Source: Shouchella miscanthi
GTDB lineage: Bacteria > Bacillota > Bacilli > Bacillales > Bacillaceae_D
DNA: 64,000 bases
Reading direction: 5' to 3'
Assembly (NCBI RefSeq): GCF_007725405.1
Contig: NZ_CP042163.1
Location: forward strand, 496,001 to 560,000
In this document: positions 17,901-39,255 of the stretch, one piece after another
Position numbering within the stretch: position 1 is the first letter of the stretch
How the letters are laid out: the number at the start of each line of letters is the position of its first letter
Program-made: the position numbers and the translations under genes
Notes under the pieces: generated by a model
Seen by the model: the letters and a program-made list of their open reading frames with translations, nothing else
Told to the model about the DNA's origin: nothing
Databases searched by the model: none

Positions 17901-18055
17901 TGAACGGTCGCAACCCACTTTTCTAGTTATCCAAGTCGCTTCGTTTAGTTTCGCTTGGGATACTTAATCACTTTGAGGTGCGTACTTGTTTAGAAGAATG
18001 CTTAGGTTTATAGTCAATTTGAAACAAAAAATCTTAACGATGAAGGTGAGAATCC

Positions 18056-18832: not shown

Positions 18833-18980
18833 ATAGCGTTGATGAATCGAAAGAGACGTAAATGTGAAAGAACCTTGTATTCTTTTCGTTAGGTTTTGAA
18901 TTTCGTCTATTTCCTGCTATGCTAGATCTACAAAAAACTAATGGATAGGGTCTATGGATAAAAAAGGAGGCGATGTAAAA

Positions 18981-19433: not shown

Positions 19434-19441
19434 CTCGATAG

Positions 19442-19472
19442 AGAGGCCTTTTGCGAAGGTCTCTTTTTTTTA
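19442..19472 (+). terminator. Intrinsic terminator
   Basis: AGAGGCCTT (19442-19450) pairs with AAGGTCTCT (19456-19464) and is followed by a T-run, after the secreted hypothetical gene. Confidence 0.8.
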
Positions 19473-19577
19473 TTTAACGATTCATTTTAGTGGTAGATTA
19501 TCTGCCCACTTCTCTTAAGAAAGTGGAAAACTTTGTTAAGCTAAAGTAAACAAAGGTAGATGGAGGGAGTGTGGCAA

Positions 19578-20906
19578 ATGAAGAAACAGGTAGGACTAGC
19601 AGTTGGGTTAGGTGTAGGTAGTACCCTTGCAACTCAAGGAGTCTATGCAGAAGAATTTCCTTTACATACAATGGATGCTCAGGAGGCAGAAGGTCAACAT
19701 TATGTACCCTCAACAGTGGACAATGTTCGCTGGGGAGAACTACCAAACCGGACAAGTGCACCGGTATTAAAGATGGAATCAGGCGAAACCATTACATTTG
19801 ATACAGTTTCAGCTGAAGGGCTACTTGATGATCAAGGCAGAGATCCTGTTTCTTACTTTGGTCAGTATGGTGTGAAGCCAAAAGATATTCTTTCCGAAGC
19901 GATTGCCATTGCGGAATCCGATATTGTCAATCTATTCGGCGAACATGGCCCTCATATTGTGACAGGGCCAGTTGAAATTAAAGGGGCAGAACCAGGCGAT
20001 GTATTAAAAGTAGAAACGTTGTCACTCACGCCGCGGGTTCCATACGGCGTTATTTCAAACCGACACGGTCGTGGTGCATTACCTGGAGAATTTCCTGAAA
20101 ATGAAGGACCAGCTGAAGAAGCAAGTGTTGAAAATCCAGAATGGTTTCATAACGTATCCGTTTTCACCCCTATTACAATGCGAAACGGGCAATGGTATGG
20201 TGAAATTCCAGGAGAAGATGTGTTTTTTCCACTTCAACCTTTCATGGGAATGATGGGCGTTGCAACCGACACGACCGAAAGAGTAGACAGTGTCCCTCCT
20301 ACCCGAACAGGTGGGAATATTGATATCAATGACTTAGGTGTAGGGTCAACCCTTTACTTACCGATTGAAGTGGAAGGCGGCCTGTTTTACACTGGTGATC
20401 CTCATTTTTCACAAGGAGATGGGGAAGTCGCGTTGAGTGCTCTTGAAGGGTCGCTTCGGGTAACCTTTCGTTTGTCGTTATTAAAAAAAGGTGATCCAGG
20501 TATACCCGGAAACGCTCATACGTTTACCCAACCAATTGGTGAAACAGAAGACTATTGGTTGCCAATTGGTCTTGATGAAGATTTAAATGAAGCGATGAAA
20601 GATGCCACACGTCAATCGATCGACTTCTTGGAGCATCATTACGGTATGGACCGTGCTAAAGCACTTGCTTACTTAAGCGCAGCAACAGATTTTGAAGTTT
20701 CACAAGTAGTGGATCGAACGAAAGGAATTAATGGAAAAATTCGAAAAGCGGATTTTGAAAAAAGGCTGCCCAATGAAGTAGCAGCAACAACAGAAGGTGG
20801 ACAGTTACCACAGACATCGACTAACTATGTTGCGTGGATAATTGGGGGCTTAAGTGTTGTAGGAGCAGCTTTTGCACTAGGTAGAAGAAAGAAACGATCT
20901 GTATAA
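19578..20906 (+). CDS. Cell-surface acetamidase/formamidase-family protein with LPQTS anchor
   Basis: A 442-residue protein of the FmdA/AmdA family, which hydrolyses formamide or acetamide to ammonia and acid. Unusually it is built for export: signal peptide MKKQVGLAVGLGVGS..YAEE, and a C-terminal sorting signal LPQTS, hydrophobic WIIGGLSVVGAAFAL and the basic tail RRKKRS. The family core is seen in ISNRHGRGALPGE, FHNVSVF, IPGEDVFFPLQPFMGMMGVA and YTGDPHFSQGDGEVAL. LPxTS sites are used by class D-type sortases such as B. subtilis YhcS. GGAGGGAGTGTG precedes ATG 19578. A strong terminator follows. Confidence 0.85.
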   Translation: MKKQVGLAVGLGVGSTLATQGVYAEEFPLHTMDAQEAEGQHYVPSTVDNVRWGELPNRTSAPVLKMESGETITFDTVSAEGLLDDQGRDPVSYFGQYGVKPKDILSEAIAIAESDIVNLFGEHGPHIVTGPVEIKGAEPGDVLKVETLSLTPRVPYGVISNRHGRGALPGEFPENEGPAEEASVENPEWFHNVSVFTPITMRNGQWYGEIPGEDVFFPLQPFMGMMGVATDTTERVDSVPPTRTGGNIDINDLGVGSTLYLPIEVEGGLFYTGDPHFSQGDGEVALSALEGSLRVTFRLSLLKKGDPGIPGNAHTFTQPIGETEDYWLPIGLDEDLNEAMKDATRQSIDFLEHHYGMDRAKALAYLSAATDFEVSQVVDRTKGINGKIRKADFEKRLPNEVAATTEGGQLPQTSTNYVAWIIGGLSVVGAAFALGRRKKRSV

Positions 20907-25282: not shown

Positions 25283-26563
25283 ATGATGCAATGGTTAGAA
25301 AGAAATGTTGTGCCGGTAGCGGGGAAAATTGGCGCACAAAGGCATTTAGTTGCCATTCGAGATGGGTTCGTGAGCGTCATTCCTCTAATTATTATTGGCT
25401 CGTTTGCCATCCTACTTAACAATTTTCCACTACCGACAATCGAACGATACCAAGCGTTTATGATGGGGATTTTCGGTGAGAACTTCACTATGTTTGGTGG
25501 GAATATATGGGATGCCTCTTATGCAATTCTGGCTCTCCTTGTTACGATGGCCATTTCCTATCACCTAGCTCGTTCCTATCATGTTGATGGGTTAGCAGCA
25601 GCAATCTTATCGGTTTCCACATTCGTTATGCTGTCGCCGTTCACTGAGGATTGGGGACTCTCACTAGCATGGACAGGATCACAAGGTTTATTCGTTGCGT
25701 TATTTAATGCAATCATTGTAACTGAATTATTCCGAGTACTCGTAAATTCTAGATTTACAATTAAAATGCCACAGGGAGTACCTGAGGGTGTAACGAAATC
25801 TTTTCGCTCACTAATTCCATTTCTTATAATTCTCATAGGACTTAGCTTGCTACAAATATTTATGACGTTAGTTGTTCAGTTAAGCGTGCACGAATTAATC
25901 TTTGAATGGATTCAAACACCCTTATTAAAATTATCAAATTCATTACCAGCAGCACTCATCGTTGTGTTCCTTAATCATTTCTTATGGTTCTTCGGTTTAC
26001 ACGGAACGAATATTATGTCACCGATTATGGAAGGTGTATACTTATCAGCAAGTATTACAAATACGGAGCTGGTTCAAGCAGGAGCGAGTATTTTTGGGGA
26101 TGAACTAGCCATTGTAACGAAAGCATTCTTTGATGCCTACGTGTTTATGGGTGGATCTGGAACCACATTGGCGCTCATTGCCGCAATCTTTATTGTAGCA
26201 AAAACGTCTCATTACCGTACGGTCGGGAAGTTAGGTGCACCAGGAGCTGCGTTTAATATCAATGAACCTATTATGTTCGGGATGCCAATTGTGTTGAATC
26301 CGTCACTGTTGATTCCATTTGTTTTATCGCCAATTCTGTTGACAATCATTTCTTATTTTGCAATTTCCCTTGGGTTTGTCGCGAAAACGGCAGTTGCGAT
26401 TCCTTGGACAACACCGCCAATTATAAGCGGATTCCTTGTTTCAGGGCACTGGTCAGGTGTGGTTTTACAGCTCTTTAACTTAACACTTGCCACACTTATC
26501 TATATACCATTTATTCGCTTATCTGAACGTGCGCAAGAACGAATTGAAAAAGAAAACGGCTAA
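25283..26563 (+). CDS. PTS lactose/cellobiose-family IIC permease
   Basis: A 426-residue PTS membrane component of the Lac/Cel family. It has many transmembrane segments, with the family hallmarks FLNHFLWFFGLHGTN, KAFFDAYVFMGGSGTTLALI and GAPGAAFNINEPIMFGMPIV (substrate/glutamate motif NEP). AAAAAGGGGGAAT precedes the ATG. IIC is separate from IIA and IIB, which follow immediately, as in licBCAH operons. Confidence 0.93.
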   Translation: MMQWLERNVVPVAGKIGAQRHLVAIRDGFVSVIPLIIIGSFAILLNNFPLPTIERYQAFMMGIFGENFTMFGGNIWDASYAILALLVTMAISYHLARSYHVDGLAAAILSVSTFVMLSPFTEDWGLSLAWTGSQGLFVALFNAIIVTELFRVLVNSRFTIKMPQGVPEGVTKSFRSLIPFLIILIGLSLLQIFMTLVVQLSVHELIFEWIQTPLLKLSNSLPAALIVVFLNHFLWFFGLHGTNIMSPIMEGVYLSASITNTELVQAGASIFGDELAIVTKAFFDAYVFMGGSGTTLALIAAIFIVAKTSHYRTVGKLGAPGAAFNINEPIMFGMPIVLNPSLLIPFVLSPILLTIISYFAISLGFVAKTAVAIPWTTPPIISGFLVSGHWSGVVLQLFNLTLATLIYIPFIRLSERAQERIEKENG

Positions 26564-26577
26564 GAAGGAGTATCATC

Positions 26578-26898
26578 ATGACAAAAACACTTGAAGAAAT
26601 TTCGTTCACACTCATTCTGCATGCGGGAAATGCTCGCTCTTTTGCGATGGAAGCCATCCAAGCAGCAAAAGCTGGAGAATTTGAGCAAGCGGCAGGTAAA
26701 TTAAAAGAAGCAGAGGATGCATTTGTGACGGCTCACCATGGACAAACGGAACTGTTGCAACAAGAAGCGCAAGGGAACGGGGTTACCCCTTCCATTTTAT
26801 TAATTCATGCACAAGATCACTTAATGACGTCGATGACAGTAAAAGAAATGGCCGTTGAAATGGTTGAACTCTATCAACGCTTACCAAAGGGAGTGTAA
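26578..26898 (+). CDS. PTS lactose/cellobiose-family IIA component
   Basis: A 106-residue IIA protein, a three-helix trimer protein that takes phosphate from HPr. The phosphorylated His lies in AHHGQTELLQQEA (HxxQ pattern) and the second conserved region ends in LIHAQDHLMTSMTVKEMA. AAGAAGGAGTATCATC precedes the ATG. It lies 14 nt after IIC. Confidence 0.92.
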   Translation: MTKTLEEISFTLILHAGNARSFAMEAIQAAKAGEFEQAAGKLKEAEDAFVTAHHGQTELLQQEAQGNGVTPSILLIHAQDHLMTSMTVKEMAVEMVELYQRLPKGV

Positions 26899-26901
26899 AA
26901 A

Positions 26902-27210
26902 ATGAATATTCTACTCGTATGTTCAGCTGGAATGTCTACTAGCATGCTCGTAACTAAAATGAGAGAAGCTGCTGAAATGAAAGGCGTAACGTGTGACATC
27001 GATGCCGTATCCGCTTCACAATTAAACGACCATTTAGAAAAAGTGGATGTCCTGTTAATCGGTCCACAAGTACGTTACATGCAAGCGCAAATTACGAAAC
27101 AAGCGGAACCATACAACGTCAAAGTCGATCTGATTAATCAAATGGACTATGGGATGATGAAAGGTGAAAACGTATTGAATCAGGCGATACAGCTCGCTGA
27201 AGGAAAATAA
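26902..27210 (+). CDS. PTS lactose/cellobiose-family IIB component
   Basis: A 102-residue IIB protein. The phosphorylated Cys is in ILLVCSAGMSTSMLVTKMRE, the standard family loop; LIGPQVRYM and LINQMDYGMMKGE follow. It starts 3 nt after the IIA stop and closes the operon, ahead of a perfect terminator. Confidence 0.92.
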   Translation: MNILLVCSAGMSTSMLVTKMREAAEMKGVTCDIDAVSASQLNDHLEKVDVLLIGPQVRYMQAQITKQAEPYNVKVDLINQMDYGMMKGENVLNQAIQLAEGK

Positions 27211-27218
27211 GGTAGTAC

Positions 27219-27252
27219 AAAAAGTATAGGCACTTGTCTATACTTTTTTTGT
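27219..27252 (+). terminator. Terminator of the PTS operon
   Basis: Perfect 11-bp stem AAAAAGTATAG (27219-27229) / CTATACTTTTT (27238-27248), T-run continuing. Confidence 0.85.
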
Positions 27253-27346
27253 GTATAATGGGGAAATAGAGAAGCAAGCAGGAATGTTTACAAGTATGTT
27301 AAGCAGCTTTGAGGGCTAGCAATCGAACAAAGTGGAGGGAAAGAAA

Positions 27347-27751
27347 TTGGACTATACAGTTATTCATGAATCCCCGCATCCAAAAGCCTATAATGAGTTA
27401 CGATTGGAAGCGGGAATGAGTGGGAAATCGCTAGAGGCAGCTGAAATCGGTCTCCGTAATTCCTTATATGCAGTGACGTTGTACGATGACGAAGTGCTAA
27501 TCGGTATGGGCAGAATCATTGGAGATGGAGGCGCTTTTTTTCAAATTGTTGATATTGCGGTGAAGCCTACCTATCAAGGAAATGGATTAGGGAGAGTTAT
27601 TATGGAGCACCTTACCAATTACCTTGACCAGAACACACTACCAGGTTCTTACGTTAGCTTAATTGCAGATGGAGAAGCAGAGCATTTATACAAGAAATTT
27701 GCGTTTAAACATACAGCCCCCCGATCCCAAGGAATGTACCGTTCGTATTAA
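27347..27751 (+). CDS. GNAT-family N-acetyltransferase
   Basis: A 134-residue GNAT protein, similar to short Bacillus acetyltransferases of the YjcF/YhhY size class. Motif A is IAVKPTYQGNGLGRVIMEHL and motif B LYKKFAFKHT. The start is TTG 27347 because GGAGGGA is 6 nt upstream; a GTG at 27332 would overlap that site. Substrate unknown. Confidence 0.85.
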   Translation: MDYTVIHESPHPKAYNELRLEAGMSGKSLEAAEIGLRNSLYAVTLYDDEVLIGMGRIIGDGGAFFQIVDIAVKPTYQGNGLGRVIMEHLTNYLDQNTLPGSYVSLIADGEAEHLYKKFAFKHTAPRSQGMYRSY

Positions 27752-27871
27752 AGAGGTTCGCCTATTTGTTCACTGGATGGTAGAAAGATAGCCAAAAGTG
27801 TGGTTTTACGTATGGGAAGAGGGGTAATCAATACACATAGGTATCAATCATGGTTAAGGAGGATATCTATT

Positions 27872-28039
27872 ATGAATCGCTTTGAGCGAGAACTGTTTCG
27901 CCGGGAGTTATTCTTTCTGAAAGCAATGAGAAGGAAAGTGACCGGTAATGAAGCTCGCTTTGTTGAGATGTTGGATGACCAAATTAAGCATCTTGAAGCG
28001 ATCCTTCATGAAGAAACAGAAAATATAATGACAGATTAG
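27872..28039 (+). CDS. Small helical hypothetical protein
   Basis: A 55-residue charged protein (MNRFERELFRRELFFLKAMR, then a helical tail). AAGGAGGATATCTATT precedes ATG 27872, a strong start; the frame from 27800 lacks one. It lies 120 nt after the GNAT gene. Family unknown. Confidence 0.55.
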   Translation: MNRFERELFRRELFFLKAMRRKVTGNEARFVEMLDDQIKHLEAILHEETENIMTD

Positions 28040-28133
28040 TGTAAAAGGATAGGGTTGACCTATCCTACATATCAACACGGGGAATCTTCCTTAACGTGAT
28101 TGATCGCTAATCGGCTGCTTGCTCTGATTCAGA

Positions 28134-28170
28134 GAAGGGGCGCATGTGTATGCACATGCGCCTTCTTTTT
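28134..28170 (+). terminator. Strong intrinsic terminator
   Basis: GAAGGGGCGCATGTG (28134-28148) pairs with CACATGCGCCTTC (28153-28165) with a bulged G, followed by TTTTT. Confidence 0.85.
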
Positions 28171-28195
28171 GTCATTATAGTAGTCACTTGTTCTA

Positions 28196-28375
28196 CTAAA
28201 ATAGAGTAAAGCTTCCCTCAATAAATTCATAGACGAAAAGAAAGATTATAAAAGCCATAAGGACAATGGACCCAATGATCATTTGCCGCATAAGGTATTT
28301 CCATGTCTTCATTAATGGGGCGCCAAGACATGCTAACGCGAGTAACATCGCAAACAATACCGCAACTTCTATCAT
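28196..28375 (-). CDS. Small two-segment membrane protein
   Basis: A 59-residue protein, MIEVAVLFAMLLALACLGAP then a basic linker and IIGSIVLMAFIIFLFVYEF. CTAGAGGTGATTTAGT precedes the ATG, giving a good start. It lies alone on this strand between the PTS region and the lanthipeptide cluster. Function unknown. Confidence 0.55.
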   Translation of the reverse strand: MIEVAVLFAMLLALACLGAPLMKTWKYLMRQMIIGSIVLMAFIIFLFVYEFIEGSFTLF

Positions 28376-28863
28376 ACTAAATCACCTCTAGATGACAATT
28401 CTTTCCTGAAGACGAACGACCTATACTAGTCTATGCGCCACGTGTTGCTTGTTTCATAAAAAAAGACAAACGAGTTGAAAGAGAAGCGTCACATGGGACG
28501 TGCTATCTTTCCGTATAGTTAAAGAATAGGTACAATTTCGTGTTTGGAAACCTGTCGCTGTGGTATATGAAAATAGAGTGAGAGGCGTCACGTGGCTTTT
28601 GAGCATGATTTTCCGATTTTGACCTTACTAAAAAACCAGAAAAATCATTTTTTTAGTAAAATAAATAAAAAAATTGAAATTTAATGGTTTTGAAACCATT
28701 CACTGTGGTATATAAATACATAAATCACGATGTTTTCCGTTTTGAAGTGTGTTCAATGCTCGTTATAATGTTTTTTACTTAATGAACGTTAACGGATTAT
28801 ATGAAATGTATTTTCAATATATAAAAAATTATTTATTTTTTATATATTTTAGGAGGATAAAAA
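28376..28863 (+). promoter_or_regulatory. Long AT-rich leader of the lanthipeptide cluster with repeated boxes
   Basis: No gene is visible in these 488 nt. Two blocks repeat imperfectly: GAAACCTGTCGCTGTGGTA (from 28547) and GAAACCATTCACTGTGGTA (from 28692), each followed by TATATGA/TATAAA. A second pair, GAGAAGCGTCACATGGGA (from 28481) and GAGAGGCGTCACGTGGC (from 28580), is interleaved with them. They may be operators or duplicated promoters. The last 60 nt before the first gene are almost pure A/T, ending in AGGAGGATAAAAA. Confidence 0.5.
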
Positions 28864-29718
28864 ATGACTGTACTTCTTGAGATGGAAAATATCAGTAAAT
28901 CGTTTAAGCGAAAAAACGTCCTTAAAAATGTTACGTTGAATGTTCCGGCTGGTTCCATTGTTGGATTTGTAGGCGATAACGGAGCAGGAAAATCGACTAC
29001 ATTTAAAACCATTTTAGGATTAATAAAGAAAGATGAAGGAACAGTTCGATTATTTGGAGAGGAAATATATGGCCAGCAATCAACTTTAAGAGAACAAGTG
29101 GGCGTTGTCTTCGATGCCATTAATCTACCTGCTGAACTTACGATTAAGCAGTTAAATAAAGTGTTTGTGAAAATGTACAGCAGTTGGGATCAAGAGGCAT
29201 TTGACAGGCTATTACAAACGTTCCATTTGCCGGTAGATAAAAAGGTAAAAGAATTTTCACGAGGGATGTCGATGAAGCTATCCGTTGCTGTAGCCCTTTC
29301 CCATAACGCTAAATTGCTTTTACTTGATGAGGCGACGGGAGGACTTGACCCATCCTCAAGAAAAGAATTATTAGATGAACTCAGTCGTTTTGTTGAGGTA
29401 AATAAAGGGGGAATCCTTTTATCCTCTCATATCATGAGTGACATTGAGAAGATTGCTGATCACCTTGTCTTTATCAAAGATGGAGAAATCATCTTAACGG
29501 AAAAGAGAGAAGTCATTCAAAATCAATACGCAATTGTTGAAATCAATGAAGAAGAACTATCGAAATTAGAGCCAGAGCATGTTGTGACATCCTATAAAGA
29601 TAACAATGCACTTGTCGTTTTGGTTTCTGATAAAAGAGAGTTACCAGAAAACATAGCTGTTAATGAGCTGACACTAGAAGATTTAAGCGTTTTCTTAGCG
29701 AGAGGTGAAAAGAAATGA
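28864..29718 (+). CDS. ABC transporter ATPase of the lanthipeptide cluster
   Basis: A 284-residue ABC-2-type ATPase. Walker A is GDNGAGKSTTFK, the signature-like EFSRGMSMKLSVAVAL replaces the LSGGQ motif, Walker B is LLLLDEATGGLD and the H-loop is in LLSSHIMSD. The SRGMSMK form is typical of bacteriocin-immunity/YtrB-like ATPases. With the permease it overlaps, it probably forms an exporter for self-protection or peptide efflux (inference). It is the first gene of the cluster. Confidence 0.88.
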   Translation: MTVLLEMENISKSFKRKNVLKNVTLNVPAGSIVGFVGDNGAGKSTTFKTILGLIKKDEGTVRLFGEEIYGQQSTLREQVGVVFDAINLPAELTIKQLNKVFVKMYSSWDQEAFDRLLQTFHLPVDKKVKEFSRGMSMKLSVAVALSHNAKLLLLDEATGGLDPSSRKELLDELSRFVEVNKGGILLSSHIMSDIEKIADHLVFIKDGEIILTEKREVIQNQYAIVEINEEELSKLEPEHVVTSYKDNNALVVLVSDKRELPENIAVNELTLEDLSVFLARGEKK

Positions 29719-30371
29719 ATGCTTTACTACTAACGAGTTATTACTTAGTTTATCGAAGTTTATTTATGTATATCGGCATATCCATTTTTGTGGCCGCATT
29801 GGTTTTAGGATTTGGTCAAGAATCCATGCACCCTTTTATTGTGTTGCTTACGCTATTATTAGTCTCCATCCCTGCAATGGAAGTAATTAAGCATGAGTCA
29901 AAGTCTGGCTACGATAAATTTGTGTTAACCATGCCAATCAATCGAGCTCATATCGTGTTTGGGCATTATCTTTTTTACTTAGCCGTACTGGCAATTGGAA
30001 TTGTCATAACAACAGTAACCTTTTTAGTGTATTTTTTCGCAGTTGAAGAGTCTTACGTTCAACTACTCGTGCAAATAGCACCTTCTATTATGCTTGTGTT
30101 GTTAATCGGTGCACTTATTTTTCCTCTGCTTTATTTATTAGGACCGGAGAAATCAGATGGTGTCTTAATTGTGGCGGCAGGGGCAGCTATCTTGGTTAGC
30201 TTTTTGATGGAACGAGTGGTTTCCAATCTTGTATTTGAACGATTCGCTTTGAATGAGGCAGAGACGTCATCAATGATTGTTTATTCACTGACTTTTGTGC
30301 TAATCGGTTTCATCATTTATATCCTTTCTTTCCTTATTGCTTTAAGTGTTTACAAGCGAAAAGAATTTTAA
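29715..30371 (+). CDS. ABC-2-type membrane permease of the lanthipeptide cluster
   Basis: A 218-residue permease with six hydrophobic segments, including the first segment SLFMYIGISIFVAALVLGFG. It matches the ABC2_membrane_5-like design, with no large extracellular domain. Its ATG overlaps the ATPase stop by 4 nt, so the two are coupled. The second region after NRAHIVFGHYLFYLAVLAIG fits the family. Likely role is self-immunity or export of the class III product. Confidence 0.82.
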   Translation: MNALLLTSYYLVYRSLFMYIGISIFVAALVLGFGQESMHPFIVLLTLLLVSIPAMEVIKHESKSGYDKFVLTMPINRAHIVFGHYLFYLAVLAIGIVITTVTFLVYFFAVEESYVQLLVQIAPSIMLVLLIGALIFPLLYLLGPEKSDGVLIVAAGAAILVSFLMERVVSNLVFERFALNEAETSSMIVYSLTFVLIGFIIYILSFLIALSVYKRKEF

Positions 30372-30399
30372 TCGATCACGTTTAAACGGGAGGACTATT

Positions 30400-30675
30400 T
30401 TGAAGAAAGATACGTTTATAAGAGATGTGTTTGAATATGGTTTGACGTTAGTAGGCGTTAATATTCTATTTATTCTTACCGAAACACTGAACCTCAATCG
30501 GTCATTTAATACGGATGGCCAAGGAAATTGGAGCATCTTTGGTTTTTCGCTACAAGATTTCTTTACGAACAATTTTGCTCTCTATGAAACCTGGGTATTT
30601 AACATGATTTTGGTTTTTATGGTTGTGGCATGTCTATTCATGATTATTTTTAGAGCCATTAGGCGTGGAATGTAG
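30400..30675 (+). CDS. Small membrane protein of the lanthipeptide cluster
   Basis: A 91-residue protein with TTG start at 30400; GGGAGG lies 6 nt upstream, and this choice avoids the overlap of the longer frame at 30346 with the permease gene. It has two membrane segments, GLTLVGVNILFILTE and NMILVFMVVACLFMIIFRAI, separated by a polar loop. It lies between the permease and the LanKC gene, the place where a LanI-like immunity or accessory protein might sit. I do not recognise its family. Confidence 0.6.
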   Translation: MKKDTFIRDVFEYGLTLVGVNILFILTETLNLNRSFNTDGQGNWSIFGFSLQDFFTNNFALYETWVFNMILVFMVVACLFMIIFRAIRRGM

Positions 30676-30712
30676 CGTTTTGCTATTGTAGAGAAAAGGG
30701 AGGATGAAAAAG

Positions 30713-33322
30713 TTGGAGGGTAATTTTCTCTATCACCAGTATTTAAAAGTAGATTCGGAACATTATGGAAAAATACGTAAAGGGGAAGGAGGAGATTTAA
30801 AAGTTGAGGGAGACATTAAGAGCATGTACTCTGTTCATAGCGATGAGGAATCCGTTTGGACACATTATCAGGTAGAAGGCGTTCATTTACCAACACAAGG
30901 ATGGAAAATCCACATTACTTCTTCTAAAAATGATGCGCAGAAAGTACTTAATAAAATAGCAAGGGTTTGTATGGAACGCAACCTTGTCTTTAAGCACTTA
31001 AAAGATCGACAGAGCTTTATGAAAATGAATTCAAAAAATGCGAACCGTGCCTCATCAGGGAAATTTATAACAGTTTATCCACTCAATGAGGAGCAATTTG
31101 TAGAGTTGTTAGATGTATTTGCTGACGCGACAAAGGATTATGAGAAAGGTCCATATATATTGAATGATAAGCGTTGGAAGGATAGTAATGTTTTTTATCG
31201 ATATGGAGGATTTAAAACGATATTAAATGAAGATGGGGAACATTGTATTTATGATGATACCGGGCAATTAATCCCGGATCAACGCAACCCATTCTATCAA
31301 GTACCACCATTTATGGAACCGTATGATGCTTACTTAGATTCATTAAACGTAAAAGATGATCTACTTTTAAACGAAGAGACGACTAAACTTAACGATTATA
31401 ACATTGAAACATCTTTAAGCTACAGTAACGCTGGGGGAGTGTATTTAGCTACAAAAAAGGCAACTGACGAAAAAGTGATTATCAAAGAAGCGAGACCGGT
31501 AGCTGGTTTAGATGGAATAGGCAGAGATGCGTTAGAAAGGCAGAAGATCGAACTAGATGCACTAACGACATTAAATCAGGTGCCTGGAGTCGTGAACGTC
31601 CTAGATCACTTCCAAGCATGGGAACACTATTTTATTGTGGAAGAATACATTGAGGGCTCTGATTTAAGGTCGTGGCTCGTACGAAACTATCCTTTTGCAG
31701 GTAGTGTAGATTTGAACGTGTATGGTGAAGAGATTGTATCAATCATGACGAACCTTTATCACATTATTGATGATATGCACCAAAAAGGCATAGCAATGGG
31801 CGATATTCAACCAGCAAATGTGATTCTGACTTCAAGTGGAGAGGTGAAATTGATCGATTTTGAAACGGCGGTTTCCGTCTACTCCACGGAAAAGCCAGGG
31901 ATGGCGACGACTGGTTTTGTTTCACAAGAAATAAAAGTTGCAGGAGCAAGAGATTGGTTTGGTTATCTAAAATTATTACGGTATATTTCTCTGCCGATCC
32001 TAACATCGGATACATTAGAAAAGTATCTTGCCCCTATTCAGTTGAATTGGATTAAGAATCAGTATCCAAGTCACGTTTATAAGCAATTTATTGATCTATT
32101 TGAAAAAGCAAACAATCAAATTCGCTACTATCAGAACGATATCCAGTTTAAGTGGCATTTAGAAGTGGACGAGCAGACAGAGGATCTGCAACTAATTGTG
32201 AAAAAACTAGTAAAAGGATTAGGTCAACATGTAACGGATGATGAAAGGTTCATCAATGGAGATATTCGTCAGTACGAGTTAAAGGATGCGAAATTTAACA
32301 TACTAAATGGTGGGAGTGGAGCAGCGCTAACCCTTAATCGTGAAGGCCATTGTGTAGAAAAGATAGATAAGTGGATGAACACTTATTTATTGGATCAACT
32401 TCCAGATGTTCAAAACGTCGGTTTATTTTCAGGACTAGCTGGTATAAGTACGTTGCTTTATGAAAGAGGACATACGGAAACGGTTCAGCAAGTAATACGT
32501 AAAATAAATCAAACAGACGAAAGAAATGACCTGACATTACGCTCTGGCCTTTCTGGTGTCGGCTTGTTTTATATAAGTATATATCTAGAAACAAATAAAA
32601 CCGAATATTTGGATTATGCTGAAAATGTGGCGGAGAAGATCGCCTTTGCAAGAAAAACGCAAAAATCATTGAAAACAAACGACTGGTCTGCGGTGCCAAT
32701 AGGGTTAATCGACGGCGTATCTGGCATTTCCTTGTTCTACGCTGCGCTCTATTCCGTTACGTCCAATGAAGATTATTTGTGTGAAGCAATTGAGTTAATA
32801 AAAGAAGATCTAGCGAAAACTCAAAAAGACGAAGAATCGGGAATCCTGCAAACACTAGATGAGAACAATCGATTATTGCCTTACTTGTCGGGAGGTTCAA
32901 TCGGGATTGGCATTGCTATTTGGTTTTTAAATCACGTTAGCGATCAACAGCTGTTTAAAGAAGAGTTTGACTCCATTTTGAATCTCTCAAAGATCAGATG
33001 TACCATTAGTGGCGGGCTCTTCGATGGTGCAGGTGGATTTCTATTGTTACCATCCTTAGTAGAAGACAGACAAGCTCAATTGGACTATACGAAAGATGTC
33101 ATTGAGTTGGCTCATTTGTTTTTAATTGAAAAAGAAGATACCTATATTTATCCAGGTAACTTTTCCTATCGATTATCGGATGATGTCTTCTCAGGTAGTT
33201 CAGGGATCATTCTAGCCTTTCAATCGATTATGAAAGAAAACCCATTGTATTGGCTGCCTCTCATAAACGTTGAAAACTTTGTAGCAAGCACGAGAGGGTC
33301 AAGACTTAAAGAAGTTCATTAA
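30713..33322 (+). CDS. Class III lanthipeptide synthetase LanKC
   Basis: A three-domain synthetase of about 870 residues that phosphorylates Ser/Thr, eliminates to Dha/Dhb and cyclises with Cys. An N-terminal lyase-like region spans about residues 1-225; the kinase domain spans about 235-480, with SNAGGVYLATKK, Lys in VIIKEARP, GDIQPANVIL for the catalytic loop and LIDFETA in the DFG position. The C-terminal LanC-like domain (about 540-870) has GLFSGLAGI, RSGLSGVGLFY, LIDGVSGISLFY and GLFDGAGGFLLL. The cyclase lacks the zinc-binding Cys/His residues (FDG instead of CHG), which indicates class III rather than class IV. TTG 30713 has GGGAGG 9 nt upstream; an ATG at 30704 abuts that site. The five precursors follow. 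Confidence 0.93.
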   Translation: MEGNFLYHQYLKVDSEHYGKIRKGEGGDLKVEGDIKSMYSVHSDEESVWTHYQVEGVHLPTQGWKIHITSSKNDAQKVLNKIARVCMERNLVFKHLKDRQSFMKMNSKNANRASSGKFITVYPLNEEQFVELLDVFADATKDYEKGPYILNDKRWKDSNVFYRYGGFKTILNEDGEHCIYDDTGQLIPDQRNPFYQVPPFMEPYDAYLDSLNVKDDLLLNEETTKLNDYNIETSLSYSNAGGVYLATKKATDEKVIIKEARPVAGLDGIGRDALERQKIELDALTTLNQVPGVVNVLDHFQAWEHYFIVEEYIEGSDLRSWLVRNYPFAGSVDLNVYGEEIVSIMTNLYHIIDDMHQKGIAMGDIQPANVILTSSGEVKLIDFETAVSVYSTEKPGMATTGFVSQEIKVAGARDWFGYLKLLRYISLPILTSDTLEKYLAPIQLNWIKNQYPSHVYKQFIDLFEKANNQIRYYQNDIQFKWHLEVDEQTEDLQLIVKKLVKGLGQHVTDDERFINGDIRQYELKDAKFNILNGGSGAALTLNREGHCVEKIDKWMNTYLLDQLPDVQNVGLFSGLAGISTLLYERGHTETVQQVIRKINQTDERNDLTLRSGLSGVGLFYISIYLETNKTEYLDYAENVAEKIAFARKTQKSLKTNDWSAVPIGLIDGVSGISLFYAALYSVTSNEDYLCEAIELIKEDLAKTQKDEESGILQTLDENNRLLPYLSGGSIGIGIAIWFLNHVSDQQLFKEEFDSILNLSKIRCTISGGLFDGAGGFLLLPSLVEDRQAQLDYTKDVIELAHLFLIEKEDTYIYPGNFSYRLSDDVFSGSSGIILAFQSIMKENPLYWLPLINVENFVASTRGSRLKEVH

Positions 33323-33373
33323 GGTTAATGGCTGTATGGACAAGCCGATTATTCTGTAAAGGAGGTGAGAAAC

Positions 33374-33511
33374 ATGAACCAAGTATTAGAATTACAAAAA
33401 CTAGCACATGATGCAGATGGTCAAGGACAGTGGAGTGTTGAAAAATCACCAGCAACCGTGACCATCACAACAACGGCAGTAGGCTGGTCAACGGCAAGCA
33501 ACGATTGTTAA
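33374..33511 (+). CDS. Class III lanthipeptide precursor 1
   Basis: A 45-residue precursor. Its leader carries the class III recognition motif VLELQKL, and its core ends GWSTASNDC, which contains the labionin-type Ser-x2-Ser-x2-Cys pattern (S39, S42, C45) after a Thr-rich run TVTITTT that can be dehydrated. A AAAGGAGGTGAGAAAC site precedes the ATG. It is the first of five paralogues. The cleavage site is not known. Confidence 0.9.
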   Translation: MNQVLELQKLAHDADGQGQWSVEKSPATVTITTTAVGWSTASNDC

Positions 33512-33542
33512 TGATAGGTTATGGATAAGAGGAGGTACCAAT

Positions 33543-33680
33543 ATGAATCAAGTATTAGAATTACAAAAATTAGGACATGATTCAGATGGTCAAGCACAAT
33601 GGAGTGTTGAAAAATCACCAGCAACCATTACAACAACAAGAACGGTCATAGGTTGGTCAACAGCAAGTAATAGTTGCTAA
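33543..33680 (+). CDS. Class III lanthipeptide precursor 2 (variant core)
   Basis: A 45-residue precursor with the same VLELQKL leader motif. The core differs from the others: ATITTTRTVIGWSTASNSC. Arg and Ile replace residues of the Thr run, and the penultimate residue is Ser instead of Asp, so a further dehydratable site is present. AGGAGGTACCAAT precedes the ATG. The Ser-x2-Ser-x2-Cys ring motif is kept. Confidence 0.9.
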   Translation: MNQVLELQKLGHDSDGQAQWSVEKSPATITTTRTVIGWSTASNSC

Positions 33681-33708
33681 AGGTACATTTACGAAGGAGG
33701 TGAGAAAC

Positions 33709-33846
33709 ATGAATCAAGTATTAGAATTACAGAAATTAGCACATGAAGTAGACGGTCAAGGACAATGGAGTGTTGAAAAATCACCAGCAACCATTACAAC
33801 TACGACAACGGCAGTAGGTTGGTCAACAGCAAGCAACGGCTGTTAA
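33709..33846 (+). CDS. Class III lanthipeptide precursor 3 (variant core)
   Basis: A 45-residue precursor with leader VLELQKLAHEVDGQGQW and a core ATITTTTTAVGWSTASNGC: six consecutive Thr/Ile positions with five Thr, and Gly before the final Cys. AAGGAGGTGAGAAAC precedes the ATG. Ring motif conserved. Confidence 0.9.
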   Translation: MNQVLELQKLAHEVDGQGQWSVEKSPATITTTTTAVGWSTASNGC

Positions 33847-33880
33847 AAGTAAGTGGGAATCTCTAAAGGAGGTGACGAAT

Positions 33881-34018
33881 ATGAATCAAGTCTTGGAATT
33901 ACAAAAATTAGCGCATGATTCAGACGGTCAAGGGCAATGGAGTGTTGAAAAATCGCCAGCAACCGTGACCATTACGACAACGGCAGTAGGTTGGTCAACA
34001 GCAAGTAACGATTGCTAA
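33881..34018 (+). CDS. Class III lanthipeptide precursor 4
   Basis: A 45-residue precursor whose sequence from Trp20 onward is identical to that of precursors 1 and 5, ending GWSTASNDC. Only leader residues differ (HDSDGQGQ). AAAGGAGGTGACGAAT precedes the ATG. Confidence 0.9.
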   Translation: MNQVLELQKLAHDSDGQGQWSVEKSPATVTITTTAVGWSTASNDC

Positions 34019-34049
34019 TAATAGGATATTTATAATAGGAGGTACCAAC

Positions 34050-34187
34050 ATGAATCAAGTATTAGAATTACAAAAGCTGGCAACTCATTCAAACGACCAC
34101 GGGCAATGGAGCGTTGAAAAATCGCCAGCTACAGTGACCATAACAACAACCGCAGTAGGCTGGTCAACAGCAAGCAACGATTGTTAA
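34050..34187 (+). CDS. Class III lanthipeptide precursor 5
   Basis: A 45-residue precursor with the most divergent leader (KLATHSNDHGQW), but identical to precursors 1 and 4 from Trp20 to the final Cys. AGGAGGTACCAAC precedes the ATG. A strong hairpin follows 5 nt after its stop. Confidence 0.9.
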   Translation: MNQVLELQKLATHSNDHGQWSVEKSPATVTITTTAVGWSTASNDC

Positions 34188-34192
34188 TTATG

Positions 34193-34229
34193 ATGCAAGT
34201 TGTTAGTCCGTTTGGCTAACAACTTGCAT
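34193..34229 (+). terminator. Long hairpin without U-tract after the precursor array
   Basis: Perfect 14-bp stem ATGCAAGTTGTTAG (34193-34206) / CTAACAACTTGCAT (34216-34229), loop of 9. No T-run follows, so it is more likely a stability/processing hairpin or leaky attenuator than a full terminator. It separates the abundant precursor message from the methyltransferase gene. Confidence 0.7.
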
Positions 34230-34275
34230 ATAGTATAGTCGGTTTGCAATAAAAACTCAAATGAGGGTGGTAGAA

Positions 34276-35106
34276 ATGGACAAGTTATTAGAAGTGGTAA
34301 AGAGTCCTGAAGTGTTTGAAGAAGGGTCGCAAGATATTTGGCTTGATCCGGATCGTGCTGATTTTGTCTTACAGTCACATCTGGATGAAACAATGGACGG
34401 TGCAAGTAAAGATGCTCATTTTATTCAGCAGTCCATTGACCTTATATGTGAGTTAGCTCCGTTAACGAACCACCAATCCATTCTCGATCTTGGCTGTGGA
34501 CCGGGACTGTACGCAGAAAAGTTAGCTGAGAGAGGATATAAGGTGACGGGCATAGATTTTGCTGAGAATTCAATTGAGTATGCGAAAAAAGAAGCGGAGA
34601 AAAAGAATCTCCCCATTGACTATCACTGTGGAGATTTCTTAACGATTAACTATGAAGAAGAATTTGATTCAACCCTATTGATTTATCAAATCTTCGGTAT
34701 TTTGAAGCCTGATGAAAGAAAAAAGGTACTATCGAACATGTATAGAGCTCTTAAACCTGGAGGATTCGTGCTGCTAGACGTATTGTCAGATAAAAGTTTT
34801 GCAGATTTCGAAGAATCGAGAGAATGGAGTCTCTCAAGTAAAAATAGTATGCTATCAAGAAAAAAGCATTTAGGGTTAATATCTACTGAGAAATATCCTA
34901 ATAATGTCTCACTTCAAAAAACCGTATTAGTGTTTGAAGACGGGGAAATCGTTAACTATCATTATTGGAATCAATACTTTAGTGTTGAAGACTTAAGACA
35001 AGAGATTGAAGAAGCTGGATTCACACTTGAACAAGTGTATGCAGACGTGAACGGTGAAACGTACAAAGCAGATGGTGAATTTATAGCGGCTGTTTTACGG
35101 AAATAA
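34276..35106 (+). CDS. SAM-dependent methyltransferase of the lanthipeptide cluster
   Basis: A 276-residue class I methyltransferase. Motif I is SILDLGCGPGLYAEKLAERG, with VTGIDFAENSIEYAK for motif II and RALKPGGFVLLDVLSD for motif III. Start ATG 34276 has GAGGGTGG just ahead. Being inside a class III cluster, it may N-dimethylate the mature peptide, as reported for the Bacillus class III peptide andalusicin; that role is inference. An alternative is methylation of some other substrate. Confidence 0.85.
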   Translation: MDKLLEVVKSPEVFEEGSQDIWLDPDRADFVLQSHLDETMDGASKDAHFIQQSIDLICELAPLTNHQSILDLGCGPGLYAEKLAERGYKVTGIDFAENSIEYAKKEAEKKNLPIDYHCGDFLTINYEEEFDSTLLIYQIFGILKPDERKKVLSNMYRALKPGGFVLLDVLSDKSFADFEESREWSLSSKNSMLSRKKHLGLISTEKYPNNVSLQKTVLVFEDGEIVNYHYWNQYFSVEDLRQEIEEAGFTLEQVYADVNGETYKADGEFIAAVLRK

Positions 35107-35234
35107 ATAGAGACATACGTGGAGTTAATGAAGGTTTCCTTTATAAGGAATTACAGAGGTTTTGTTTTTCTTTCTTTTTTCAACTTGAAGTGGTCCCACG
35201 ACTGAAACTCTAACTATGAAAAGAGACATTCACT

Positions 35235-36989
35235 ATGGAAACGTTATCGTATAAACAGTTTGTTGGAATTTTTACTACCTATAGGCCGTCTCGAATGCTC
35301 CTAACAATTGCTTTTACACTTTCCTTGGTACAAACAGGGCTGTCGTTAGTCATTCCCTTAATTGCCATGGATCTTGTGAACTTACTTATCGAAGAATCGT
35401 TTAATGGGCTCCTACTTGCGGGGTTAGTACTTTTATTCGTTACTCAAGTTGTTTTATCTGGTCTATCCTTGTACTTAATGATTTATATCGGAGAAAAAGT
35501 GATTTTACGTCTTCGAGACGATTTGTGGAATCGAGTTGTACGATTGCCGCTTACGTTTTACGACAAAAACAATTCCGGCGAAATTATGAGCCGCATTACG
35601 AACGATACGAATGTGATGAAGAACTTTTTTATTGATCATTTAGTTCCTTTCTTTACAGGACTGGTTTCGATAGTCGGCTCTTTTATCATCCTCTTTGTTC
35701 TAAACTGGTCTATGGCACTGCTTTTTTTAGTCATTTTTCCATTAGCGTTCTTTGTGATAAAGCCTCTTGGAAAACGAATGTACAACGTTTCAAGAAACCT
35801 ACAACAGGAGACGGCTTCTTTTCAAGGCGACTTAAGTAGAGTACTAGGAGACGTTCGATTAGTGAAATTTTCTGTTGCTGAAAAGCAAGAGGCAGCTGAA
35901 GGTGCTAAGCGCGCTACCAACCTTTATCGTCACGGATTATCTACTGGAAAAATACTAGCTGTTGTTGCTCCATTAATGACAACAACGATTCTACTTGTAC
36001 TTGTTATGATTATTGGATATGGAGGCTATCAAGTAGCCACAGGGAGTCTGTCAGCAGGTGCGTTGGTCGCGGTCGTCTTTTACATCTTCCAAATTATCAA
36101 CCCTCTTTCAATGATGGCACAATTTTTTACGCAAGCACAGAAAGCGATGGGTGCGACTGAGCGGGTTTATTTATTATTGAAAGAAAAACATGAAGGCACC
36201 GTTGCTTCAGTGAAAGAGTCTGTTAGAAAGAACCAACATGCTTTTAAAGGCATTCGCTTTTCAAATGTAGGGTTTTCGTACGACCAAGAGAGAAAGATTT
36301 TAAGAAAAATTAGCTTTACAGCAGAAGAAGATCATGTTACGGCTATAGTAGGACCTAGTGGGACTGGTAAGACCACAGTGTTTTCTCTGCTAGAACGCTT
36401 CTATTTAATTGATGAGGGTGACATTTTCTATAATAGTGATTCCATCTATTCCTATACATTAGAAGAGTGGAGAAGGAAAATAGCTTACGTTAGTCAAGAG
36501 TCACCGATTATGAGCGGGAGTATAAGAAAGAATATAACCTATGGGTTAAAGCAACCAAAAAGCGACCATGCCATTTACGAAGCCATAAACAAAGCGAACT
36601 TAATGAGTGAGATCATGGCGCTACCAAAAGGATTGGACACGGAAGTAGGCGAACGAGGCATTCGCTTATCCGGTGGACAGAGACAAAGGATCGCCATTGC
36701 AAGAGCCATCTTAAGAGACGCGGATATCCTATTGCTCGATGAAGCAACAGCGCACTTAGATGGACAATCGGAAGCGCTAGTTCAAGACGCGTTAAACGAG
36801 TTAATGAGAAATCGAACAACGTTAATCATTGCGCACCGGATCTCAACTGTTCAAAACGCAAACAACATTGTAGTGATGGAAAATGGAGAAGTAACAGATC
36901 AAGGAATCCATGAGGATTTATACAAGAAAAATACGTTATATCATCATTTAGTAAATAGGCAAATGGTATCGAACAACCACGGCGCCTAA
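35235..36989 (+). CDS. ABC exporter (half-transporter) of the lanthipeptide cluster
   Basis: A 584-residue exporter with six-segment membrane domain (TAFTLSLVQ region to about residue 310) fused to an ATPase domain. Walker A is GPSGTGKTTVF, the signature is LSGGQRQRIAIARAI, Walker B is ILLLDEATAHLD and the H-loop is IIAHRIS. It lacks the N-terminal C39 peptidase found in class II LanT, so leader removal must be done by another protease. It is the last gene of the cluster, with a terminator 48 nt later. Exporter of the modified peptide is the likely role. Confidence 0.9.
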   Translation: METLSYKQFVGIFTTYRPSRMLLTIAFTLSLVQTGLSLVIPLIAMDLVNLLIEESFNGLLLAGLVLLFVTQVVLSGLSLYLMIYIGEKVILRLRDDLWNRVVRLPLTFYDKNNSGEIMSRITNDTNVMKNFFIDHLVPFFTGLVSIVGSFIILFVLNWSMALLFLVIFPLAFFVIKPLGKRMYNVSRNLQQETASFQGDLSRVLGDVRLVKFSVAEKQEAAEGAKRATNLYRHGLSTGKILAVVAPLMTTTILLVLVMIIGYGGYQVATGSLSAGALVAVVFYIFQIINPLSMMAQFFTQAQKAMGATERVYLLLKEKHEGTVASVKESVRKNQHAFKGIRFSNVGFSYDQERKILRKISFTAEEDHVTAIVGPSGTGKTTVFSLLERFYLIDEGDIFYNSDSIYSYTLEEWRRKIAYVSQESPIMSGSIRKNITYGLKQPKSDHAIYEAINKANLMSEIMALPKGLDTEVGERGIRLSGGQRQRIAIARAILRDADILLLDEATAHLDGQSEALVQDALNELMRNRTTLIIAHRISTVQNANNIVVMENGEVTDQGIHEDLYKKNTLYHHLVNRQMVSNNHGA

Positions 36990-37036
36990 TGAAGGGCAGT
37001 ACAACTAGCGATGAAAAGGAAACCGTACCATGAACG

Positions 37037-37076
37037 AAAGACGAATGTCCGCCAACGGGATCATTCGTCTTTTTGT
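37037..37076 (+). terminator. Intrinsic terminator of the lanthipeptide operon
   Basis: AAAGACGAATG (37037-37047) pairs with CATTCGTCTTT (37062-37072), followed by TTTTGTT. Confidence 0.82.
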
Positions 37077-37114
37077 TGCACCGTCTATGCTTCTTACAAA
37101 AGAGTGTGCATGTT

Positions 37115-37573
37115 CTAATGGTGCGCATGATCGTTTGAAAATGGTTGTGAAGAGCCGTTTAGTAAATACTCCGCTTCTTCAGGTGTGATCTTGCCGACAG
37201 CAAAACGCTTTGTCGGCATCGCATATAAGTCACCAACCTGCGTGAAGGCTTTGGCGAAATAGAGTCCTTCCTGGGTAAAATCGACTTCCACTGCATAAAT
37301 TCCGTTTCCTTCAGCGGTAGCCGTTACATACTCATGTTGTTCATGATTATTGGACCAAACTTCAAATCGAACAAGTTCGGCATCTGTGATCTCTTCCTCT
37401 CCTTGAGAAACGGAGGCATAAATCGTTTGTTTCCCTCCTTCTGAGATAGAATCTGGCAATTCGACCCGTACTTGAAGCGGTTGAAACGCTGTGTACGCTT
37501 CAGGGTTATTACTGGTAAAGGAACAAGCAGACAGGAAAACAGTCATGCTTATGATGGTGAAAAGTAGTCGCAT
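37115..37573 (-). CDS. YtkA/FixH-like lipoprotein
   Basis: A 152-residue lipoprotein. The signal peptide ends with lipobox FLSACS, and the mature domain is a YtkA-like beta-sandwich (LQVRVELPDSISEGGKQTIY, then GIYAVEVDFTQEGLYFAKA). The C-terminus is a His-rich tail NDHAHH that may bind metal. It follows a PepSY-domain membrane gene by 12 nt in the same direction, so they are one operon. A role in copper or iron handling is conceivable but not shown. Confidence 0.8.
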   Translation of the reverse strand: MRLLFTIISMTVFLSACSFTSNNPEAYTAFQPLQVRVELPDSISEGGKQTIYASVSQGEEEITDAELVRFEVWSNNHEQHEYVTATAEGNGIYAVEVDFTQEGLYFAKAFTQVGDLYAMPTKRFAVGKITPEEAEYLLNGSSQPFSNDHAHH

Positions 37574-37585
37574 GTTATCAACCTC

Positions 37586-38944
37586 CTATGCGTGGAAAAA
37601 CGCTTTGAGACGCTTGTTTTTTTGAATAAGGAAAACGTCCAATAAGAACACAACGAGAAGAGAAAGGGCAACAAGTGGAAACACAACAGCAAATAAGAGT
37701 AGAATGACGAGCAAAGCCCGGTTATGACGAATGGAATGTGCTTTTGGAGCACCCATATGTTGTTGAGGCTTCCGGCGTCTCCATAAGAAAAACCCTGATA
37801 CAATGATGCCAACTAAGCCGATACAAATGAGTAAGCCGAACAATTGATTAAGAAGTCCGAATTCAAGCCCTTTATGAATCGTAATCCCCGTTGCCATCCA
37901 TTTTCCAACTAGACCATAGTCATCATACCGATAATCGGCGAGAACAGCACCTGTATATTGATCCACATACATGGTCGCCTCGTCTCTTGCTTGGTCAGGA
38001 AAGGCAGAAAGCGTGAAGGAGCCTGTTTCACTTCTTGGAAAGTAAACGGTGTAGCTCGGGTGTAATTCCCGGTGCAGTCCTGTTGTGACCACGTCATCAA
38101 TCGAAACCTGTTCATACCCTTGCTCATTTCCAGAAAGCGGTACAGGTAATTTCTGTGCAGCCCAGGCTGATTCTGCCACATCCTCTGTTAAGGATTGCGG
38201 AGCATCACCTACCCAAATAGACGGGGGATAGCCATGTCCTGTACTTGTGGCTATATGCTGCACCCCGTTTCCCCAAAAACCAGTCCACAACATTCCTGTT
38301 AAAACGAAAAACAAGAGGCCAATGGATAGCCACGCAGCAGGCACTGCGTGTAAATCGCGAACAAGAACACGCTTGCCTTTTCGCACCCGCGGTAGCCAGA
38401 CCCCATAGAGGTTGGGTTTGGAGCGCCTTGGCCACCACAAATAAAGGCCACTAGCGATCAAAATAATGGTCCACGAAGCTGTGAGCTCAACAACTCGATC
38501 CCCAAACGTTCCGAGCATCAGCTCGCTATGTAATTCTATTAACCGTTCCATCACTCGATTTTGATCCAGGAGCACCCCTAACGATTCCCCAGTGTATGGA
38601 TTCATGAAGACGGTGCCGGATGCCCCGTCGTCAAATGAAGCGCCAATAGCAACAGATCGAGTGGCTTCTTCACTAGGGGAATAAGAGGTAACCGTTGCAA
38701 TATCCTCGTGAGCAGTGAGCGCATTTGCGATCAACTCACTAGGCGGATACGTCACACCATCTTGGTTAGGACGCACATCGTAATACTCGCTGTAGATGGA
38801 AGCTTCAATCGTCCCTTTAAACAAGTAAATGCCTCCTGTAATCGCTAGGAGAAGTAAGATCGGTGCAATGATAAGACCAGCGTAAAAATGCCATCGCCAA
38901 ACCGTACCATAACGCTTTAACGATCGAGGTGGATCTGTTTTCAA
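37586..38944 (-). CDS. PepSY-associated transmembrane protein
   Basis: A 452-residue membrane protein of the PepSY_TM family, found near siderophore/iron-uptake and redox systems. It has an N-terminal membrane helix after WRWHFYAGLIIAPILLLLAI, two large extracytoplasmic PepSY-type regions, internal helices (IILIASGLYLWWPRR, SIGLLFFVLTG) and a C-terminal helix pair. Conserved His in WRWHFYAG, DLHAVPAAW and TIHKGLEFG are typical haem or metal candidates. The TTG start has GAGG a few bases upstream. The adjacent YtkA lipoprotein is cotranscribed. Confidence 0.85.
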   Translation of the reverse strand: MKTDPPRSLKRYGTVWRWHFYAGLIIAPILLLLAITGGIYLFKGTIEASIYSEYYDVRPNQDGVTYPPSELIANALTAHEDIATVTSYSPSEEATRSVAIGASFDDGASGTVFMNPYTGESLGVLLDQNRVMERLIELHSELMLGTFGDRVVELTASWTIILIASGLYLWWPRRSKPNLYGVWLPRVRKGKRVLVRDLHAVPAAWLSIGLLFFVLTGMLWTGFWGNGVQHIATSTGHGYPPSIWVGDAPQSLTEDVAESAWAAQKLPVPLSGNEQGYEQVSIDDVVTTGLHRELHPSYTVYFPRSETGSFTLSAFPDQARDEATMYVDQYTGAVLADYRYDDYGLVGKWMATGITIHKGLEFGLLNQLFGLLICIGLVGIIVSGFFLWRRRKPQQHMGAPKAHSIRHNRALLVILLLFAVVFPLVALSLLVVFLLDVFLIQKNKRLKAFFHA

Positions 38945-39255
38945 TGGTCATTCCTCATTTCGATTATAATAATATAATGTTTGTTGAACTAACTATACAA
39001 CAAGGATAACGAAATAATGTGAACTAATTGTGTGTTTAGGTTGGGAAAATAAAAAAAGCACCTAAACGGTTTAGGAACGAGCCTTTTCCATATCGTTGGT
39101 CGCTTTTAATTCTTTATAAAGTCCTGCTTGCGCCGCTCGTATCAAACGAACCACCTCGACTTACCCTTCTAAATCACCATTTTATACTTTTCTCCATCTC
39201 ATGATTGATTTTTTCGCGAAGCTTTCTCTTTTTCTAGTAGAGGGGGGAACATCAT
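38945..39255. other. Intergenic region between divergent operons
   Basis: No convincing gene. It holds an AT-rich promoter-like stretch before the PepSY gene, and a hairpin CCTAAAC-GTTTAGG near 39061-39075 whose minus-strand side is followed by a T-run (a minus-strand terminator shape with no clear gene above it). A 27-codon frame on the minus strand (39071-39154) lacks a ribosome site. Confidence 0.4.

Follow-up and report, generated by a model that had tools for sequence, protein, structure and literature searches.

A class III lanthipeptide gene cluster of Shouchella miscanthi, probably complete and of the andalusicin type

Andalusicin is produced by Bacillus thuringiensis NRRL B-23139 from a gene cluster (Thur/Anc) that contains seven near-identical precursors and an alpha-N-methyltransferase, with the M16B protease pair encoded outside the cluster. 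The methyltransferase, ThurMet, adds two methyl groups to the leader-free peptide (PMC10604976). Andalusicin inhibits Bacillus cereus ATCC 4342, and activity is 20 +/- 10-fold lower in an analogue without the two methyl groups, whose absence may be the cause (PMC11557216). The Pre_24 group, which includes bacinapeptins and paenithopeptins, comprises 115 precursors from 48 clusters of Alkalihalobacillus, Bacillus and Paenibacillus, and the paenithopeptin cluster has seven precursors (PMC8960859). The cluster described here lies in Shouchella miscanthi, in a stretch of 64,000 nucleotides (the window; contig NZ_CP042163.1, positions 496,001 to 560,000, assembly GCF_007725405.1). All of its named genes are on the + strand at 28864-36989 of the window, as seen from the open reading frames (ORFs) and a domain scan. 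With a probability of about 0.9, it is a complete andalusicin-type class III lanthipeptide cluster that follows the pathway proposed below. The sequence itself establishes the gene content, the synthetase and precursor family, the catalytic residues, the match of the leaders, the presence of a protease pair and purifying selection on the cores.

Synthetase and precursors

The LanKC synthetase contains a RamC_N lyase domain (residues 45-205), a protein kinase domain (242-407) and a partial LanC-like domain (664-754). It scores 761.4 bits against NF038151, the NCBIfam equivalog for class III LanKC (cutoff 575), and 322.1 bits against the class IV equivalog (cutoff 650). The zinc ligands of the cyclase are replaced by S729, F773 and D774, which match S726, F770 and D771 of ThurKC, the andalusicin synthetase, indicating a zinc-free cyclase. 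The nearest solved structures are those of ThurKC (8sap, 8sam and 8sao), and the two synthetases are 55.9% identical over 861 aligned residues. LanKC and the ThurKC chain carry the same letter at 23 of the 24 functional positions named in PMC10604976, and the residues that ThurKC requires for labionin formation (R519, R610, D657, D667, F770 and D771) are all conserved. A scan of genome contigs gave one relative, Shouchella oshimensis. LanKC matched 86 plasmid records, every one below 60% identity, and had no relative in viral contigs. In a tree of 19 synthetases, which carries a long-branch warning for other parts of the tree, LanKC of the window and of S. oshimensis group with ThurKC and the synthetases of genomes G334 and G149 at 100/100 support.

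Five 45-residue precursors directly follow LanKC, and each of their genes is preceded by GGAGG. The array consists of five copies of a 153-nt repeat at spacings of 169, 166, 172 and 169, and the later copies share 80-89% identity with the first. NF038154 was run on three of the five precursors, all of which pass (64.9, 64.2 and 52.6 bits, cutoff 22); a six-frame search with this model found five matches in the window's genome, all over the cutoff, and none in 14 control genomes. A leader regular expression run over both strands of the whole window returned exactly these five precursors.

The original prediction had called this region a class III lanthipeptide cluster with a LanKC of lyase, kinase and zinc-free cyclase domains, five 45-residue precursors directly behind it, and an ABC pair, a small membrane protein, a methyltransferase and an ABC exporter around them. 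Each of these elements is present as predicted, and the homology comparison that it proposed for LanKC and the precursors bears the assignment out, with the family models passed and ThurKC as a relative. The features are as follows.

28864..29718, + strand: ABC ATPase, PmtA-like, with a putative role in immunity or export (ABC_tran; NF047565 PmtA at 235.8 bits, below the cutoff of 350)
29715..30371, + strand: ABC-2 type permease, partner of the ATPase (PF13346, 99.4 bits)
30400..30675, + strand: small membrane protein of 91 aa, perhaps for immunity (TTG at 30400 behind GGGAGG; 109 aa if started at GTG 30346)
30704..33322, + strand: LanKC, class III lanthipeptide synthetase of 872 aa (domains, NF038151, identity to ThurKC, tree)
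33374..33511, + strand: precursor 1, core A (EKSPATVTITTTAVGWSTASNDC) (45-aa frame, 153-nt repeat copy)
33543..33680, + strand: precursor 2, core B (EKSPATITTTRTVIGWSTASNSC) (45-aa frame, 153-nt repeat copy)
33709..33846, + strand: precursor 3, core C (EKSPATITTTTTAVGWSTASNGC) (45-aa frame, NF038154 six-frame match, 153-nt repeat copy)
33881..34018, + strand: precursor 4, core A (45-aa frame, NF038154 six-frame match, 153-nt repeat copy)
34050..34187, + strand: precursor 5, core A with a divergent leader (45-aa frame, 153-nt repeat copy)
34193..34229, + strand: stem-loop of 16 pairs in the gap between precursor 5 and the methyltransferase (fold z -5.64; no T run behind it)
34276..35106, + strand: class I SAM methyltransferase of 276 aa, predicted alpha-N-dimethyltransferase (Methyltransf_25, 84.6 bits)
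35235..36989, + strand: ABC exporter with fused membrane and ATPase domains (ABC_membrane, ABC_tran; no peptidase domain reported)

For two genes the first possible start is probably not the one used: ATG 34276 is the more likely start of the methyltransferase, and TTG 30400 that of the membrane protein.

The five precursors have five distinct leaders and only three distinct cores from residue 23 on: core A in copies 1, 4 and 5, core B in copy 2 and core C in copy 3. All three cores contain a single C-terminal Ser-x2-Ser-x2-Cys, and their ring ends read STASNDC, STASNSC and STASNGC. S. oshimensis has five precursors in the same order, with cores identical to those of the window. Over the five pairs, the cores differ by 22 synonymous and no nonsynonymous changes (88.3 and 256.7 sites), and the leaders by 21 synonymous and 10 nonsynonymous changes (60.3 and 269.7 sites). 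These counts indicate that the cores are under purifying selection. A chance repeat is ruled out by the curated family scores, the same order in S. oshimensis and the cores without amino-acid change; a decaying cluster is ruled out by the open frames of the cluster genes and the selection on the cores. By nucleotide, copies 2, 4 and 5 are nearest to the S. oshimensis copy at the same position (92, 95 and 98%), and copies 1 and 3 match theirs at 89% and 88%, values that some paralogues equal or exceed. A speculative and quite improbable reading takes the three cores, whose order is fixed in both species, as separate components of a single multi-peptide antibiotic, dosed at about 3:1:1 by gene copies and with the array selected as a unit.

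Proposed pathway and its alternatives

The leader of the window precursors (MNQVLELQKLAHDADGQGQ) can be compared with that of ThurA1 (MNTVLELQKLAHDTEGKGQ). The part of the ThurA1 leader upstream of the linker in 8sam reads MNTVLELQKLAHDTEGKGQAAE, and its window counterpart reads MNQVLELQKLAHDADGQGQWSVE; the leader of a relative in genome G662 reads GKGQAVEATWTW. The best guess is cleavage after Glu23, which would give a 22-residue core beginning with Lys24. With this cut, dehydration of every Ser and Thr and two methyl groups, the calculated [M+H]+ would be 2076.996 for core A, 2130.070 for core B and 2002.959 for core C. Neither the window ORFs nor the domain scan revealed a protease gene in the cluster. 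The genome contains three M16_C matches, two of which are adjacent to each other elsewhere on the chromosome. This pair is flanked by genes for FtsK/SpoIIIE and an SDR, and a CDP-alcohol transferase is encoded further along. One member of the pair carries the catalytic M16 domain and reads HFLEH. The two are presumably YmfF and YmfH, a naming that rests on the gene order of B. subtilis. In the studied cases, leaders are cleaved by M16B pairs encoded outside the cluster (PMC10604976, PMC8960859). By analogy, the adjacent pair is likely to be the leader peptidase for these precursors.

We infer the modifications, the cleavage site, the order of steps, the roles in transport and immunity and the activity as follows. 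LanKC would bind the VLELQKL leader helix, phosphorylate Ser and Thr of the core, eliminate the phosphate, yielding Dha and Dhb, and join Ser39, Ser42 and Cys45 into a single C-terminal labionin by zinc-free cyclization. The M16B pair of the YmfF/YmfH type, encoded elsewhere, would remove the leader, most likely after Glu23, and the methyltransferase would then place two methyl groups on the N-terminal amine exposed by the cleavage. Export of the product would be by the fused ABC exporter, and protection of the producer would fall to the PmtA-like ABC pair, possibly together with the small membrane protein. The five genes would yield three congeners, A from three copies and B and C from one each, which most likely act on other Gram-positive bacteria.

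Several observations count against this pathway. One of the 24 named positions is changed, from S608 in ThurKC to T611 in LanKC, and N366 of PMC10604976 reads Q in the ThurKC chain as numbered here, so that this position is not a clean test. Two members of the synthetase clade, from G334 and G149, occur with a precursor that lacks the Ser-x2-Ser-x2-Cys end. The best matches of the methyltransferase among solved structures are generic, with LahSB, a lanthipeptide methyltransferase, in seventh place and CypM (7wzg, 46 bits) in eighth. Finally, a 39% relative of the methyltransferase is encoded on an Enterococcus gallinarum plasmid with no lanthipeptide gene among the listed neighbours.

Because the G334 and G149 precursors end otherwise, membership of the ThurKC clade does not by itself establish labionin as the product, and the S-x2-S-x2-C motif permits either labionin or plain lanthionine (PMC11251773). 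It is nevertheless very unlikely that LanKC forms plain lanthionine, or a mixture, at the C-terminus, since the labionin residues of ThurKC are all the same in LanKC, and labionin is what ThurKC and the enzymes of the bacinapeptins and paenithopeptins form on this motif. The labionin and the N-methylation put forward originally are both supported by close homology to the andalusicin pathway; for the product of this cluster itself they stay predictions.

The generic structural matches would suit a methyltransferase that is idle or that acts elsewhere than on the N-terminal amine. This is unlikely given the position of the gene in the cluster and the homologues that adjoin LanKC in other loci, at 95% in S. 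oshimensis (locus L003) and 49% in L028. In addition, ThurMet, from the same kind of cluster, dimethylates the leader-free peptide. Dimethylation of the N-terminal amine is the preferred prediction. A similar frame, as judged by eye, follows a precursor in L081. The methyltransferase matched 213 plasmid records, of which two neighbourhoods were examined. In one of these, on plasmid p2 of Staphylococcus haemolyticus (L099, 3557-10548), a 34% relative belongs to a class II lanthipeptide cluster, where it follows LanM and an S8 protease and sits between the protease and an ABC transporter. This placement hints that lanthipeptides from more than one class, once freed of their leaders, may be substrates of the methyltransferase group.

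The stem-loop upstream of the methyltransferase has 16 pairs and z -5.64 in a fold of 34180-34262. In S. oshimensis, the stem letters are the same and the loop has one change. Conservation of the stem says little alone because most of the surrounding DNA is equally unchanged. The scan gave 8 terminator-like sites compared with 5.7 in shuffles, none of them at 34193-34229, and 24 promoter-like sites compared with a shuffle mean of 28.1, that is, no excess. No Rfam family reached its gathering score. The stem-loop is perhaps a signal for transcript end or partial termination.

Chromosomal site, distribution and flanking genes

The genome of the window is a single contig of 4,250,608 bases. The cluster recurs in genome G450, of the same species, at 99.4% over 12.5 kb, and all five precursors are the same; their presence there and in S. 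oshimensis rules out an array newly made in the window strain. Genomes with NF038154 matches, the window's own included, number five of 13 in the genus and 10 of 397 in the order. The flanks in genome G005 align to window positions 26000-28466 (with a short gap; the query began at 26000) and 37117-39076, and nothing in G005 aligns to 28467-37116 at E 1e-3. This unaligned stretch agrees with the limits originally given for the cluster. Since G005 keeps the flanks without the cluster, the latter is an accessory block at a fixed chromosomal site. Between these flanks, G005 has 1.6 kb of unrelated DNA instead (L078, G005:C1:500000-508000, 3531-5120).

Among 18 related loci, homologues of the ABC ATPase adjoin LanKC in L003, L035 and L036, homologues of the ABC-2 permease in L003, L028, L035 and L036, and homologues of the ABC exporter in L003, L029, L030, L035, L036, L040 and L041. 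Producer immunity is a plausible role for the ABC pair, judged from sequence. The small membrane protein has a weak YfzA match below the cutoff, with no family assigned, and a homologue at E 1e-5 in L003 only. For five other window proteins, scanning with PADLOC returned a single weak match, to an oxidoreductase.

The same biosynthesis could serve the producer itself, by way of non-antibiotic peptides acting in development or at the surface, of which SapB of Streptomyces is an example. A morphogenetic role is described for the class III peptides of Streptomyces (PMC13380574), and the slow evolution of the cores would fit a target of the producer's own. This use is distinctly unlikely, however: andalusicin, the closest studied relative, inhibits B. 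cereus, the PmtA-like ABC pair fits self-protection, and G005, which lacks the cluster at this site, shows that the genus does not need it. An antibiotic directed at other Gram-positive bacteria is the favoured function.

In L031 (G006:C138, 328-2908), from a genome that is 86% complete, a LanKC relative is spread over three separate open frames adjoining one precursor-like ORF, which reflects either a broken gene or an assembly error. In L098 (G007:C2:97000-116999, about 6098-19998), from the same genus, three nonribosomal peptide synthetase (NRPS) genes with Condensation, AMP-binding and PP-binding domains are directly preceded by an M16 peptidase gene and by short frames resembling class III leaders. 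The leader-like frames include weak NF038154 matches (23.4 and 25.1 bits), one with an internal stop, and a 39-aa frame at 7979 without Cys. L098 is possibly a leader of a ribosomally synthesized and post-translationally modified peptide (RiPP) beside an NRPS line, or remnants.

Comparison with known systems

No description of this cluster, of a class III lanthipeptide in Shouchella or Bacillus clausii, or of the leader VLELQKL was found in the literature searched, which took in part of the papers on Alkalihalobacillus lanthipeptides. The one paper joining oshimensis and a lanthipeptide concerns another class in its available parts. S. oshimensis and other Shouchella were formerly named Alkalihalobacillus (PMC8543038), and the window cluster may be among the 48 Pre_24 clusters. 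By the description in PMC8960859, it has in common with the bacinapeptins and paenithopeptins the single S-x2-S-x2-5-C motif, LanKC, the methyltransferase, the transporter and the M16B pair.

The number of precursors was presented originally as unusually high for a class III cluster, a contrast that is not supported. The leader regular expression counts 0 to 7 precursors near LanKC in the 18 related loci, with at least five in three of them (five in L003, seven in L040 and six in L041) and none in one (L042). The counts exclude single leaderless hits located elsewhere in L003, L030 and L038. Five precursors are not exceptional, though at the upper end, because the andalusicin and paenithopeptin clusters have seven each and three of the 18 loci have at least five.

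A more distant system is represented by the LanKC of PDB 9wj0/9wop, which matches the window LanKC over its full length at 919.6 bits, a more distant score than that of ThurKC. Its precursor reads MNQVLDLQKL...STVSNNC. Each of the loci that resemble this system, L035 and L036, has two precursors, and neither shows a homologue of the methyltransferase at E 1e-5.

With the andalusicin cluster, the window cluster shares the leader type, near-identical precursors in multiple copies, the methyltransferase, a protease pair outside the cluster and a single C-terminal ring, the last predicted here. The andalusicin cluster differs in having seven precursors, compared with five precursors and three cores in the window, and andalusicin undergoes 11 dehydrations, compared with 9, 10 and 10 Ser/Thr in the window cores. 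The published mass of the andalusicin ring is 755 Da with one Ala (PMC10604976) or 683.84 (PMC11557216). The ring ends STASN(D/S/G)C have computed masses of 643.21, 615.22 and 585.21, none of which fits. STISNNC minus three waters gives 684.28, or 755.31 with Ala, and, among the compositions compared, it or its Leu isomer fits the published ring. The mismatch of ring mass rules out identity with andalusicin, and the products should therefore be new congeners. The novelty suggested originally thus applies to the exact cores and not to the type of cluster, which follows the known andalusicin pathway. Three natural core variants are added to a small family of labionin peptides with a solved synthetase structure, and they would help to map the core letters on which LanKC, the M16B protease and activity depend. 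The general picture of class III lanthipeptides is left as before, with this cluster as a sibling of the known andalusicin kind.

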